A DNA stretch of 64,000 bases from the NCBI RefSeq assembly GCF_002335445.1, contig NZ_BDME01000007.1:46944-110943 (forward strand), written 5' to 3'. Below the pieces are notes generated by a model that saw only the letters and a program-made list of their open reading frames with translations, made no database searches and was not told the origin of the DNA. The translations under genes were made by a program, and so were the position numbers. Each line of letters starts with the position of its first letter. The stretch's first letter is position 1. Positions 12,806-36,253 of the stretch are shown one piece after another. The DNA comes from Lebetimonas natsushimae. GTDB lineage: Bacteria > Campylobacterota > Campylobacteria > Campylobacterales > Nautiliaceae.

Positions 12806-13934
12806 ATGAATTTAATTCAGGGAATTGCCACAATTATAATCACACTTCTTGGAAGTGAAGTATTTATTGTCCCAGCAATCAGTGCAACATACAGCGGATG
12901 GGCTTCATTATTTGTATGGTTTTTAATGGCATTTATGATTTTACCGGTAGCTTTTGTATTTGGAAAACTTGGAAAAATATATCCAAGTGCAGGAGAAAGT
13001 GCAACATTTGTGGGTGCGGCTTTCGAGAAAAAATTTGAAAAAGCAACATCTTTTTTATACCTCTCCATAATACCTATCGGTCCACCGGTTGTAATAATTA
13101 CTGCGGCATCATACCTTGCAGGAGCATTTGGACAAAAATATCTTATTGATTTTATTGTTTTTGCAACCATAATAATTCTAACATTAAATCTTTTATCACT
13201 AAATATTTCATCAAATATAAATATCTTTATTACATTTACAATAACAGCCATTATCATCTGCTTTTTTATATATGCACTTTTTCAAAATTACCACATCACA
13301 AACCACAAATTACATATCATTAAAACTTTCGCAATTGTGTTTTGGTGTTTTGTAGGAATAGAAGCATTAAGCCATATATCACACGAATTTAAAAAAGAAA
13401 ATGATTTTTTTAAAGCGGTAATTATAGGAATAACAACAGTTGCATTTTTATATATGGCCGTAACTTTTGCGGTTTTGGTATTCAACGCATACGGCAATGA
13501 ATCAAAAAACCTCCGCTCTCTTGTAATAATTGCATCAAAAATCATACCTTATACAGACAAATTAATAGCATTTATCGCTTTTAGCATATGCATAATGGTC
13601 CTGAATTTATATGTTGCAGCTCTCACTCGTCTGGCAACCACTCTGAATATAAGGCTTTAAAAAAGCTCTTTTTATTATTGTGGGAATAATTTTTATTGTT
13701 AGTGTTTTGAAATTTAAACTCAATTTCAAAATAGATCTGCTTATCACCTACGCAAACGGATTTTTGTATTAATCTATTTTTTTAGTTTCGCTGTCGGCAT
13801 TAAAAATTTTAAAAAACAAAATATCTTTTTTTGCCGTTGTTTCAATGAGCTTAATTATATTTACAATAGGATTTGATATGATTTATGCAGCAGTAACTTT
13901 TTTGATATTTATAATTTTACAAAGCAACGACTAA
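12806..13934 (+). pseudogene. Decayed APC-family amino-acid permease (YjeH-like)
   Basis: The first 284 codons (to a stop at 13658-13660) read as an APC transporter: LLGSEVFIVPAISATYSG, GKIYPSAGESATF and VFWCFVGIEALSHIS, with about eight membrane segments. The homology then breaks. After the stop, another frame reads KKALFIIVGIIFIVSVLKFK and ITYANGFLY followed by an in-frame TAA; later sequence LKILKNKISFFAVVSMSLII continues to a final TAA at 13932-13934. At least two frameshifts are needed to restore a normal 380-400 residue permease. The promoter and a good AAAGG site are still intact. The final stop lies in the first bases of the repeat element at 13929. Sequencing error in homopolymers is the main alternative. 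Confidence 0.75.
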
Positions 13935-14114
13935 ATATACACTTCAAAAATAAAAATATTACAGCTCAATGCTTCATTTTGCTAAAGCATCACTCAAATT
14001 TTACTAAAAATTGCAAACGCAAGCGCCCTAACGGGTCAAGTGCAATTTTTTTAACGTAAAAATTTCGTTAACTTCCGCTACGCTGTAATATTTTTACTTT
14101 TCCGTTATTTAGTC
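13929..14114 (-). repeat. Terminal-inverted-repeat element, short copy (copy 1)
   Basis: A 186-bp element. Its ends are exact inverted repeats: GACTAAATA at the left outer edge and TATTTAGTC at the right, followed further in by TAAAAATATTACAGC on each side (15 of 15 matching). The interior shares TTGCAATTTTTAGTAAAATT and TTAACGAAATTTTT-type hairpins with copies at 35009 and 35930, but lacks the roughly 85-bp hairpin-rich middle of those copies. It contains no ORF. Orientation is opposite to the other two copies. Confidence 0.75.
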
Positions 14115-14126
14115 AAAATCTTTTAC

Positions 14127-14150
14127 AAAAAAAGAGGTTTAAAAAACCTC
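14127..14150 (-). terminator. Rho-independent terminator of gltX
   Basis: On the minus strand, GAGGTTTTTTAAACCTC forms a 7-bp stem followed directly by seven T. The gltX stop codon TAA (14139-14141) lies in the stem-loop itself, so coding sequence and terminator overlap. Confidence 0.8.
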
Positions 14151-23128: not shown

Positions 23129-23875
23129 TTATCGATTTTCTTTTAAAGAAAAAAATCCTATAGTAATAAAAATCCAGCCGATAAAAATAATTACAAAACC
23201 AACCAAAACGATTGATAAAATACTTCCTATAAAAATAAGATTACCGCCAATTGAAAAGAGTTTCTCATTTGTTATTTTAAATATAGAATTAAAACTTTTT
23301 TTATAAAACAAGGAACTAATAATTCCCAAAATATATACTATAACTCCTATTGCTACTACAATTAACCAACTTGAATCCATTTCATAAGAGTAATTTTCAC
23401 TTTCCGCCAAAATGGCAATAAAAATAGTTATTATAAAAAATAAAAATAAAAAATAATTGATTAAATATAATATTGAACCGATAATAAAATTTTTAAATGC
23501 TTTTTCTTCCTTTTTATATTCACTTAACTGTTTAATAGCAATAGCTATTAAAATAAATCCCACAATACTTAAAAGAAAAGAAAAAGCCGGACCTATATGA
23601 GGAACAGGGGAAACAAAACCGGCAATTAATAATAAAACACCCCCTATGCCCCCGAATGTTCTAATGTTTTCAGACATTTTTATATCATTTTTTTGTATTA
23701 AATAAATTCCCGCCGCTTTACCGTCTTCACTTACCTCAAAATCAACTACATCGTTTTTTTGGGGAGGGGTCTGCTCTTTCCATTCTTTTATTTCAAATTC
23801 ATATCTTTTTCCGTCATCCCCGCTTATTATTCCTCTTCCTTCCTGTAAATTAAAATCTAATACTTTCCCTCTCAT
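23129..23875 (-). CDS. Cold-shock-like domain fused to a DUF996-like membrane domain
   Basis: A 248-residue protein. Residues 1-58 form a small beta domain (GKVLDFNLQEGRGIISGDDG) like cold-shock/OB folds that bind RNA or DNA. Residues 80-245 hold about six membrane segments of DUF996 type. The N-terminal 58 residues match those of the neighbouring TM2 protein at all but residue 2 (R/K), and the DNA is almost identical, so the two genes share a recent duplication. It follows the TM2 gene by 3 bp. Function is unknown; the N-terminal domain should be cytoplasmic. Confidence 0.7.
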   Translation of the reverse strand: MRGKVLDFNLQEGRGIISGDDGKRYEFEIKEWKEQTPPQKNDVVDFEVSEDGKAAGIYLIQKNDIKMSENIRTFGGIGGVLLLIAGFVSPVPHIGPAFSFLLSIVGFILIAIAIKQLSEYKKEEKAFKNFIIGSILYLINYFLFLFFIITIFIAILAESENYSYEMDSSWLIVVAIGVIVYILGIISSLFYKKSFNSIFKITNEKLFSIGGNLIFIGSILSIVLVGFVIIFIGWIFITIGFFSLKENR

Positions 23876-23876
23876 C
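23701..23876. repeat. Duplicated 5' gene segment, copy B
   Basis: About 175 bp that encode the first 58 codons of the DUF996 protein. It matches 24157-24332 base for base at an offset of 456 except for one visible substitution near the start codon (CTCTCAT against CTTTCAT). Confidence 0.9.
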
Positions 23877-23878
23877 TG

Positions 23879-24331
23879 TTAAAACCAACATTTTTTATTT
23901 TTAACATATGTTTCTTCAAATTCCTTATCAGATTTAAATATGTAAATTAAAGATTCAATAAATGCAATTACCGCTATTATAAAAGAAGGTATTCCGGCCA
24001 ATATAAAACCTAAAAGAAAAATAACCAACATTATGATACCTTCTTTAGTACATCCCAAATAAAATTTATGTACTCCGAATCCTCCTAAGAAAAACGCTAA
24101 TAAAAATGCAACAATTTTACTTTTTTCACCTGATACATTAGAATTGTCAGAATCATAATAAATTCCCGCCGCTTTACCGTCTTCACTTACCTCAAAATCA
24201 ACTACATCGTTTTTTTGGGGAGGGGTCTGCTCTTTCCATTCTTTTATTTCAAATTCATATCTTTTTCCGTCATCCCCGCTTATTATTCCTCTTCCTTCCT
24301 GTAAATTAAAATCTAATACTTTCCCTTTCAT
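23879..24331 (-). CDS. Cold-shock-like domain fused to a TM2 domain
   Basis: A 150-residue protein. Residues 1-58 are the duplicated cold-shock-like beta domain. A linker (DSDNSNVSGEKS) leads to a TM2 domain of two membrane segments with the conserved core LGGFGVHKFYLGCTKEG. TM2 proteins are membrane proteins of poorly known function. AAAGGAGA precedes the ATG. It lies 54 bp after nspC and 3 bp before the DUF996 paralogue. The pair shows domain shuffling in place: one soluble module on two different membrane anchors. Confidence 0.8.
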   Translation of the reverse strand: MKGKVLDFNLQEGRGIISGDDGKRYEFEIKEWKEQTPPQKNDVVDFEVSEDGKAAGIYYDSDNSNVSGEKSKIVAFLLAFFLGGFGVHKFYLGCTKEGIIMLVIFLLGFILAGIPSFIIAVIAFIESLIYIFKSDKEFEETYVKNKKCWF

Positions 24332-24332
24332 C
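24157..24332. repeat. Duplicated 5' gene segment, copy A
   Basis: The partner of 23701-23876, covering the first 58 codons of the TM2 protein. Identity at silent positions indicates a recent duplication or ongoing gene conversion. Confidence 0.9.
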
Positions 24333-24385
24333 TCTTTCTCCTTTAATTTTTTTATTTTGTATTGTATTAATTTTTTATTAAAAAA

Positions 24386-35000: not shown

Positions 35001-35008
35001 ATGACATT

Positions 35009-35280
35009 GACTAAAAATAACAAAAAAGTAAAAATATTACAGCATAGCGGAATTTAACGAAATTTTCGCGTTAAAAAAATTGCATTTAACCCGTAAGGGT
35101 TGCAGGCGTATGAAGTGCAAATTTGCACAAATTCATCGCCGTACGAGCCTAAAAACGACAAGCAGTTGTCGTTTGTTTAACAGCTCTCCTGTTTGCAATT
35201 TTTAGCAAAATTTAGTGGTGCATAGCAAAATGAAGCTCGAAGCTATAATATTTTTATCTTTGAAGTATCTATTTAGTTAG
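35009..35280 (+). repeat. Terminal-inverted-repeat element, long copy (copy 2)
   Basis: About 272 bp. Outer ends GACTAAAAATAAC and TATTTAGTTAG; inner TAAAAATATTACAGC and GCTATAATATTTTTA form a 15-bp arm with one G-U type mismatch. Inside, in order, stem-loops: CGAAATTTTCG; AACCC GTAA GGGTT; GGCGTATGAA ... TTCATCGCC enclosing GTGCAAATTTGCAC; AACGACAA GCAG TTGTCGTT; AACAG CTCTC CTGTT. It has no ORF. It fills most of the 377-bp gap between the FlhB-like and AMMECR1 genes. Confidence 0.8.
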
Positions 35281-35298
35281 TATTGTAAATAATTTAAG

Positions 35299-35327
35299 TT
35301 GATTAAACTAAACTTTTATGATATAAT
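35299..35327 (+). promoter_or_regulatory. Promoter of the AMMECR1 gene
   Basis: TTGATT (35299-35304), 17-bp spacer, TATAAT (35322-35327) with an extended TGA. A strong AGGAGGGG ribosome site follows before the ATG at 35352. Confidence 0.65.
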
Positions 35328-35351
35328 TAATAAAAGTTTAAGGAGGGGAAA

Positions 35352-35921
35352 ATGGAAAATTTAAAAATTTTGCCAAAACTCGCAAGGCTTTCAATTTTGG
35401 AAGAATTTGAAGGTAAAAAATTAATTGATAAGGATGAATGGATAGAAAAATATCCGTTTTTGGCTGAAAAAAGAGCCTGTTTTGTAACTTTAAAGAAAAA
35501 AAATATGCCAAGAGGAAGTAATCTCAGAGGTTGTATAGGTTCAATCCTGCCATACAGACCGTTAATTGAGGATGTTATAGAAAATGCAAAAGCGGCAGCC
35601 TTTGGAGACCCTAGATTTGAACCGTTAAGACCTGAAGAATTTGACGAAATAGAAATAGAAGTCAGTGTTCTTACAATTCCTGAAAAACTTGAATATGAAG
35701 ATGTAAATGATTTAAGACAAAAAATAAGACCGGGTGTTGACGGGGTAATACTTCAGCTTGCAAACCATCAGGCGACTTTTCTGCCAAGCGTGTGGGAGGA
35801 ACTTCCTAATTTTGATCTGTTTTTTGCACATCTTTGCCTAAAAGCCGGCCTTGCGGGAGACTGCTTACAGTATCATCCGGTAATTTATACATATCAGGCA
35901 ATAGAAGTTAAAGAGGATTAA
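35352..35921 (+). CDS. AMMECR1-domain protein (AmrA)
   Basis: A 189-residue AMMECR1 domain protein with the invariant LRGCIGSI motif (about residues 58-65), AAFGDPRFEPL and YTYQAIEV at the end. In many bacteria and archaea it is one part of the three-gene AmmeMemoRadiSam set with a Memo and a radical-SAM protein; neither partner is here. Function is not settled. It has its own promoter and is flanked by two same-orientation copies of the small repeat element. Confidence 0.9.
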   Translation: MENLKILPKLARLSILEEFEGKKLIDKDEWIEKYPFLAEKRACFVTLKKKNMPRGSNLRGCIGSILPYRPLIEDVIENAKAAAFGDPRFEPLRPEEFDEIEIEVSVLTIPEKLEYEDVNDLRQKIRPGVDGVILQLANHQATFLPSVWEELPNFDLFFAHLCLKAGLAGDCLQYHPVIYTYQAIEVKED

Positions 35922-35929
35922 TATTATTT

Positions 35930-36197
35930 AATTAATAACGAAAAAGAAAAAATATTACAGTGTTACGAAATTTAACGAAAATTTTGCGTTAAAAAATTCA
36001 TTTAACCCATAAGGGATGCAGGCGTATAAAGTGCAAATTTGCACAAATTCATCGCCGTGCGAGCCTAAAAACGACAAGCAGTTGTCGTTTTTTTTAACAG
36101 CTCTCCTGTTTGCAATTTTTAGCAAAATTTGAGTGATGCATAGCAAAATAAAGCTCGAAACTGCAATATTTTTATCTTTGAAGTATATATTTAATTA
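35930..36197 (+). repeat. Terminal-inverted-repeat element, long copy (copy 3)
   Basis: About 268 bp, in the same orientation as copy 2 and clearly homologous along its length, with small changes (AACCCATAAGGGAT, TTAACGAAAATTTTGCGTTAA, AACGACAAGCAGTTGTCGTT). Inner arms are AAAAATATTACAG and CTGCAATATTTTTA. Outer ends are less conserved (AATTAATAACG and ATATTTAATTATT). No ORF. It occupies the gap between the AMMECR1 gene and the gene at 36254. Confidence 0.8.
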
Positions 36198-36253
36198 TTG
36201 TCAAAAGATTAATTTTTTTTCTTTTTCGCCGATTTAAAATAAAAAGGCAATAA

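Follow-up and report, generated by a model that had tools for sequence, protein, structure and literature searches.

Hairpin MITEs of the Correia/NEMIS and ERIC types are 100-200 bp long, carry inverted ends and can be folded over much of their length, and in this they resemble the element described here, whose ends and family are different. REP repeats are described in one study as palindromes with a foot tag, which may sit inside other palindromes, which in two species mostly lie at most 20 bp from gene 3' ends when placed between convergent genes, and which often supply the stop codon (PMC3733652). Their tag is given as GT[AG]G in a second account (PMC3686654), and some subclasses of TnpA-Y1 are without REPs according to a third (PMC6006769).

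The window, by which we mean the whole 64,000-nucleotide stretch of DNA that was analysed, contains an element that recalls both kinds of repeat. We consider it probable that its copies 2 and 3 belong, as long forms, to a MITE family of the Nautiliaceae that has IS1-type ends and was likely mobilised in trans by an IS1 transposase, and that they carry an independently spread, REP-like module predicted to form a hairpin at transcript 3' ends. The build would be nested, with an IS1-type shell outside and the REP-like module in its loop, stacking layers of selfish or regulatory DNA within 280 bp; the IS1 transposase as the mover, the role at transcript ends and whatever moved the module are the parts that we infer. 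What surprises us most is the nesting of a phylum-wide module and the swapping of ends around a conserved core.

Copies 2 and 3 are real: their aligned pieces are 86-98% identical (90% over query positions 7-270), and, as the initial annotation had seen, they are homologous and lie in direct orientation, one on each side of the AMMECR1 gene. The borders proposed there (35009-35280 and 35930-36197) were in the right place but, owing to decay of the outer ends, fell short by a few bases; those given in Table 1 come from reading the flanks by eye. Among the hairpins listed at the time, AACGACAA-GCAG-TTGTCGTT and AACAG-CTCTC-CTGTT recur exactly in both copies, GGCGTAT..GTGCAAATTTGCAC..TTCATCGCC is present in both with one change in copy 3, and AACCC-GTAA-GGGTT is exact in copy 2 but replaced by AACCCATAAGGGAT in copy 3. 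AACAG-CTCTC-CTGTT forms in most MITE-borne copies; its CTGTT arm is missing in the Helicobacter and Nautiliaceae CRISPR copies. The statement that the element contains no ORF holds in that it is non-coding, with one mechanical 63-aa ORF on the minus strand of copy 3. Where three copies had been counted, the genome has 12 loci, six short (about 170-200 bp; C6:36883, C7:60873, which is copy 1 of the window, C1:315726, C1:572136, C2:164458 and C2:384844) and six long (up to about 280 bp; C7:81953, C7:82877, C1:442712, C2:434532, C1:446709 and C1:779851), a count for which neighbouring match pieces were joined by hand and weaker fragments left out. Searching this genome with copy 2 returned copy 3 at E = 2.5e-98 and near-full copies elsewhere at 7.6e-72 and 5.5e-55; the long copy at C1:779851 has the same interior with a different core around it. 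At E<=0.001, 17 of the 21 family genomes, own included, gave matches, some through the interior or weak pieces only. A separate direct repeat of 180 nt lies at 23701-23880 and 24157-24336 of the window (99% identity, 456 bp apart).

Table 1. Coordinates of the element copies, their parts and the neighbouring gene (positions are those of the window)
Feature	Position	Strand	Remarks
Copy 1, short form, without module	13923..14120	-	
8-bp target duplication of copy 1, TTTTACAA	13915..13922 and 14121..14128	none	identical pair
Copy 2, long form (MITE shell that holds the module)	35003..35284	+	flanks CAAAATAT / GTAAATAA alike at 5/8 (decayed duplication)
Left end of copy 2, GACATTGACTAAAAA (family form GGYACTGACTAAATA)	35003..35017	+	
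Right end of copy 2, inverted partner	35270..35284	-	
Structured module, copy 2	35102..35194	+	covariance model E=3.6e-23 (G000:C7:82045-82137); copy 2 itself belongs to the alignment behind the model
Hairpin H1 of module, copy 2	35105..35140	+	
GCAG hairpin AACGACAA-GCAG-TTGTCGTT, copy 2	35154..35173	+	fold with flanks -10.1 kcal/mol
Promoter-like TTGATT-17-TATAAT between copy 2 and AMMECR1	35299..35327	+	consensus match only; 5 found vs 6.8 expected in shuffles
AMMECR1 gene between copies 2 and 3	35352..35921	+	name as in the initial annotation
Copy 3, long form	35920..36202	+	flanks AGAGGATT (35912-35919) and AAAAGATT (36203-36210), alike at 6/8
Structured module, copy 3	36018..36111	+	covariance model E=6.2e-22 (G000:C7:82961-83054); copy 3 itself belongs to the alignment behind the model
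Hairpin H1 of module, copy 3	36021..36056	+	
GCAG hairpin, copy 3, then T-rich tract	36070..36089	+	fold with flanks -11.3 kcal/mol

The shell has the marks of a MITE, being short and non-coding, with terminal inverted repeats and a target duplication of fixed length. Its aligned copies share a hairpin core, from (A)TAACGAAAAAGTAAAAATATKACAGC... to ...GCTGTAATATTTTTATCTTTGTAGTTA, that bears two unrelated sets of ends. TIR A, GGYACTGACTAAATA, is found on core copies of the window's genome (G000), G010, G011, G012, G013 and G016, and the pattern GRYAYTGACTAAATR derived from it matches in 16 of 21 family genomes, with 0 matches to the reversed control pattern; TIR B, CAGGGCTGTTTCAYGCTGA, was detected by pattern in G005, G006 and G019 and in a decayed form in G003. 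Within the window, the 8-bp duplication is perfect at copy 1 and partial at copies 2 and 3 (Table 1). A script that compares flanks, with randomly paired flanks as the control, found a match at 7-8 of 8 positions in 6 of 12 TIR A copies of this core with both ends recognised (G0f, G0j, G16k, G16n, G16o and G13d; control 0.8% of pairs), and at 9-10 of 10 positions in 8 of 13 TIR B copies (control 0.0%), the 13 including five without duplication (G19d, G19e, G19f, G5a and G5b). A second core with TIR A, of about 150 bp, has perfect 8-bp duplications in 9 of 18 copies, L140 and L141 among them, which are probably one stretch on two contigs. A clear duplication is missing in the remaining copies, i.e. 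in 6/12, 5/13 and 9/18, respectively. The inner core has outlasted a swap of the outer ends, and 8 of its 44 pairs show a double change, whereby the changes in the inner stem are common to eight copies of one genome and may represent one event. Since the family to which the ends lead, IS1, is already known, we read the shell as an IS1-type MITE and not as a new kind of transposon.

Several individual loci deserve mention here. Perfect 8-bp duplications around the second core with TIR A are seen at L141, L142, L148, L151, L158, L160, L167 and L170, and a relative of this core (L080:1960-2230) also contains the module. L079 and L084-L089 of G019 combine the same hairpin core with the unrelated ends CAGGGCTGTTTCAYGCTGA and 10-bp duplications. 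The TIR B copies without a 10-bp duplication (L082 and L083 of G019, L039 and L052 of G005) have common flanks, CCTCAAAC or CATCTCAAAC on the left and CTTTTTGCC.. on the right, as if the whole unit sat in yet another repeat.

As to the mover, we looked for genes at 15 loci that have a lone TIR A. In G001, a 107-aa fragment with a match to the IS1 DDE domain (PF03400 E=0.0031, NF033558 E=0.0013, both below curated cut-offs) has a stop codon that shares bases with an exact GGCACTGACTAAATA, and in G010, an exact GGCACTGACTAAATA stands ahead of a helix-turn-helix N-terminus that resembles IS1 transposase (NF033558 E=2.7e-6, below cut-off; HTH_38 over the same part). Six places in G001 further harbour an intact IS1-family element of 684 bp; its ends are GGCACTGACCTAAAA, of which 12 of 15 positions agree with the MITE ends GGCACTGACTAAATA, and its 8-bp duplications, judged by eye, are perfect at the five distinct sites. 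An intact IS1 element with exact GGCACTGACTAAATA ends was not found in the 21 family genomes, of which two have PF03400 at E<=0.001 (G001, and G020 with a weak match). With IS1-family insertion sequences and their MITEs, the shell has in common the ends GGCACTGAC.., as in the 684-bp element of G001, the 8-bp duplications and the relics that abut exact ends; it differs in that no coding capacity was seen and that its core also occurs with other ends and 10-bp duplications. The MITEs would, in our reading, likely be moved in trans by an IS1-family transposase. IS1595, another candidate, was rejected, as PF12762 was found in 0 of 21 family genomes.

At the AMMECR1 locus, copy 2 lies between the stop codon of the upstream gene and a promoter-like sequence leading into AMMECR1, and copy 3, as bordered here, begins at the AMMECR1 stop codon. 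In the family, 20 of the 21 genomes, own included, yielded a relative of AMMECR1; elements adjoin it in G000 (long copies on both sides) and in G016 (a short copy upstream) only, and the other 18 loci, some of them cut by contig ends, gave no BLAST match of more than 31 bases to the element. Downstream of AMMECR1, the sister genome G016 is free of elements; upstream of it, none is present in G015 and G017, whose upstream gene is of the same kind. The short copy of G016 is nearer to AMMECR1 than copy 2 is, and we do not claim that the two are the same insertion. In G013 and G015, a long and a short copy stand in the same flanks; the interior has therefore been gained or lost at a fixed site.

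This extra interior of the long copies is a module of about 93 positions, in which a hairpin H1 and GTGC are followed by GAGCC-TAAAA-stem-GCAG-stem-TTTNTTAAC-GGCTC-TCC. The query stretch from about 125-136 to 181 matches alone in G001, G013 and G019, at CRISPR arrays, and a scan of genome_contigs, which may leave out records of the window's own or nearest genomes, with the pattern GAGCCTAAAAN7GCAGN7TTTN{1,3}TTAACRGCTC returned six stretches; three Nautiliaceae genomes account for four of them, and Helicobacter sp. 11S02596-1 for the other two. The stems of the Helicobacter modules have other letters and keep their pairing. A first covariance model, built from 18 sequences, had 17 double-changed cells, compared to 3.8 in shuffles. 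Among 397 sampled Campylobacterota genomes, the covariance search found the module in 67 at E<=1e-5, spanning 33 genera, and in 89 at E<=0.1 (39 of 68 genera), of which up to 40 could be chance at face value, so that the strict 67 were used. In the alignment of 86 matches (78 distinct), 89.8% of the cells pair, against 28-50% in slid versions, and 394 cells are double-changed, against 118 in shuffles (sd 10.7; reached in 0 of 500), figures that lean towards structure because the alignment was fitted to the model. Double changes occur in 21 of 22 pairs, while the outermost helix is only 53% paired; the GCAG hairpin, the one best supported by covariation, has a helix with 98.4% pairing in the 78 distinct sequences. 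The GCAG loop is present in 79 of the 86 rows, the 5' internal loop reads TAAAA in 50 and TACAA in 22, and the module ends in CTCC (46) or CTCA (18).

Rfam returned only tRNAs at gathering score for the window and nothing at threshold for L073-L076, L175 and L176, where a sub-threshold match to rivX (26.8 of 100 bits, E=0.0038) overlaps one G001 copy; blastn of plasmid and phage collections with one 106-base module query gave no match, the strict module pattern gave 0 in viral contigs, and no description of the module was found in the open literature searched. The two proposals of the initial annotation apply to different layers. A MITE moved by an absent transposase describes the shell well (8-bp duplications, no element downstream of AMMECR1 in G016, IS1-type ends and no match for the IS1 transposase, PF03400, in the window's genome) but leaves out the interior, a separate module; a structured RNA repeat describes this interior, which is structured, phylum-wide and present at other kinds of sites, but not the whole element. 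Two outcomes had been named there as speaking against the proposals: the match to a known IS or MITE family is found in part, as the ends do point to IS1, and the prospect of three chance-like copies without covariation was not borne out, there being more than three copies with covarying stems.

The six covariance matches of the window's genome all lie within its six long copies, and genomes have up to 11 matches. Elsewhere, the module lies beside tRNA genes whose 3' part is duplicated (25 bp at L222 and L223, 21 bp at L233, 27 bp at L204 and at least 40 bp, the longest length tested, at L224), within CRISPR repeats (L235 and L227) and at two gene starts (L193 and L226), with tRNA and gene identities assigned by eye. 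One G001 copy at a CRISPR array has the repeat piece CCCCTTAACGGG on both sides. Flanking repeats of at least 15 bp were detected at 12 of 79 sites, while a control word placed 300 bp further along gave them at 1 of 79 (Fisher p=0.002); nine of the 12 are left after discounting L073 (the array itself), L218 (low complexity) and L213 (a neighbouring copy), and some are related loci (L233/L204 and L235/L227, each pair from one genus). The 79 sites are the 86 rows minus seven, namely one MITE-borne copy, two repeats of the same place and four extra or weak matches. We considered whether the CRISPR-borne module might be a leader and rejected this, since by eye an AT-rich stretch with the usual look of a leader, common to two G001 arrays, lies on the opposite side, which places the module at the trailer end there. 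In the CRISPR region of G001, five module matches (L073, L074) lie near a reverse transcriptase domain and near ORFs that, by their appearance, presumably encode Cas1 and Cas2, and L074 has two GCAG- or GTAG-looped hairpins with different stems in a row.

For a test of gene neighbours, 63 copies were retained (79 minus 16 in short loci, CRISPR loci or as second copies), of which 10 lay inside a called ORF and 4 were without a neighbour on one side. The 49 classed copies comprise 16 in convergent, 28 in tandem and 5 in divergent gaps, compared to 14, 67 and 27 control gaps (Fisher p=0.008 and 0.034). In 18 of the 49, from 13 genomes and all 18 in one orientation, the stop codon of the facing gene falls -18 to +4 bp from the module 3' end; cases in one genome or genus are not independent. 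It falls at -10 to +4 in 13 of the 18, and in the other 5 the coding sequence extends 12-18 bases into the module; the pattern may therefore owe something to stop codons that lie within the module. At L207 and L210, two short loci outside the neighbour count, the module also follows just after a stop codon, in both cases of a gene that we take, by eye, to end in the C-terminus of GroEL. Modules that sit in MITE loops do not lie at gene ends. The preference for gene ends is consistent with the predicted role as a hairpin on transcript 3' ends. A consensus terminator scan did not list the module hairpin, perhaps because the A-tract pairs with the T-tract. If the module does end transcripts, it would help to define operons at these sites, and AMMECR1 would be a single-gene unit here.

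In several respects, the module is built and placed like a REP/BIME: an imperfect palindrome with a foot tag, beside stop codons, downstream of coding regions and commoner between convergent or co-directed genes, and sometimes inside other palindromes (compare PMC3733652). Read on the other strand, GGAG- or TGAG-AGCC...GGCT has a similar look, but the tag is GGAG in 46 and TGAG in 18 of 86 rows and does not conform to the GT[AG]G given in PMC3686654. Moreover, the module consists of two hairpins over about 93 positions, where a REP spans 20-40 bp, no RAYT was seen beside it, it has target duplications at tRNA genes, and its matches do not exceed 11 per genome. By analogy, it may work like a REP, which is less than showing it to be one. 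That it is a true REP, mobilised by a RAYT (TnpA-REP, a Y1 transposase), would be in line with this REP-like anatomy and placement (PMC3733652), and Y1_Tnp is indeed found in 48 of 89 module genomes vs 76 of 308 others (p=5e-7; at E<=1e-5, 35/67 vs 89/330, p=8e-5). By genus, however, this link is weak (26/39 vs 13/29, p=0.087), and 41 of the 89 module genomes are without a Y1_Tnp match. A cognate RAYT flanked by modules was found neither in the RAYT region of G000 nor at 19 other Y1 loci (BLAST of the module and the elements, best E 0.013), and among the matches listed, in the 24 genomes that have modules as well as Y1 genes, the two come no closer to each other than 9.4 kb. Y1 transposition is not known to leave target duplications. 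Together with the deviating tag, this makes a true REP unlikely. Neither REP/RAYT nor IS1 accounts well for the duplications at tRNA genes.

Other explanations can be weighed as well. For an ordinary bidirectional intrinsic terminator kept by vertical descent, one would cite the A-tract, stem and T-tract and the 18 copies at a facing stop codon, all in one orientation; the constant GCAG loop and the internal loop nevertheless exceed what a terminator needs, and insertion into tRNA and CRISPR repeats with a duplicated target, together with up to 11 matches per genome, speaks of spread, so that we regard this explanation as decidedly unlikely. A SINE-like retroposon, copied by reverse transcriptase, would account for a 3' end that appears constant by eye while the 5' extent varies and for the duplications of at least 15 bp at 12 of 79 sites, and reverse transcriptase genes do lie 2.1-2.4 kb from module copies in CRISPR or CRISPR-like loci of G031, G048 and G387, which belong to one genus. 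Across genomes, RVT_1 shows no clear link to the module (21/89 vs 59/308 others, p=0.37; 19/67 strict genomes vs 61/330, p=0.09), and 68 of the 89 module genomes are without an RVT_1 match; we hold retroposition to be highly improbable. It is similarly hard to believe that the whole 280-bp unit is a single structured regulatory RNA gene, duplicated around AMMECR1 and not mobile. The strong covariation of the module, the lesser one of the MITE core (8/44 pairs) and the conservation of this core across genera would suit such a gene, but copies occur at unrelated sites with 8- or 10-bp duplications, short copies are without the interior, the outer ends are swapped around a retained core, and the downstream element is missing in G016; we thus hold this to be very unlikely.

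Beyond the nested arrangement of an IS1-type MITE shell and a REP-like module, which we prefer, it is conceivable, if doubtful, that the interior represents a mobile, structured and so far undescribed element that belongs to Campylobacterota as a whole. It would insert where transcription units have their 3' ends (at tRNA genes, CRISPR arrays and stop codons), make long target duplications there, depend on neither a DDE enzyme nor a RAYT nor reverse transcription, and ride in MITEs to spread. If the module does move by a novel route, the duplicated tRNA ends would provide a direct handle on its mechanism. The module provides a motif that can be checked throughout the phylum Campylobacterota, be it at CRISPR arrays, at tRNA ends or at stop codons. 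At L231 and L232 of G068, a genome of another family, it sits in a loop with the arms AAAAAAGTGCGCTCAACCCCGAAGGGG..CGTTCGCACTTTTTA, similar to the Nautiliaceae MITE core. In family f8, it is accompanied by another structured repeat, GAGCGAGGG..hairpins..CTGGTTTACCTT (L239-L242 of G271 and G387), which by eye resembles the 5' half of the CRISPR-borne copy of G001.
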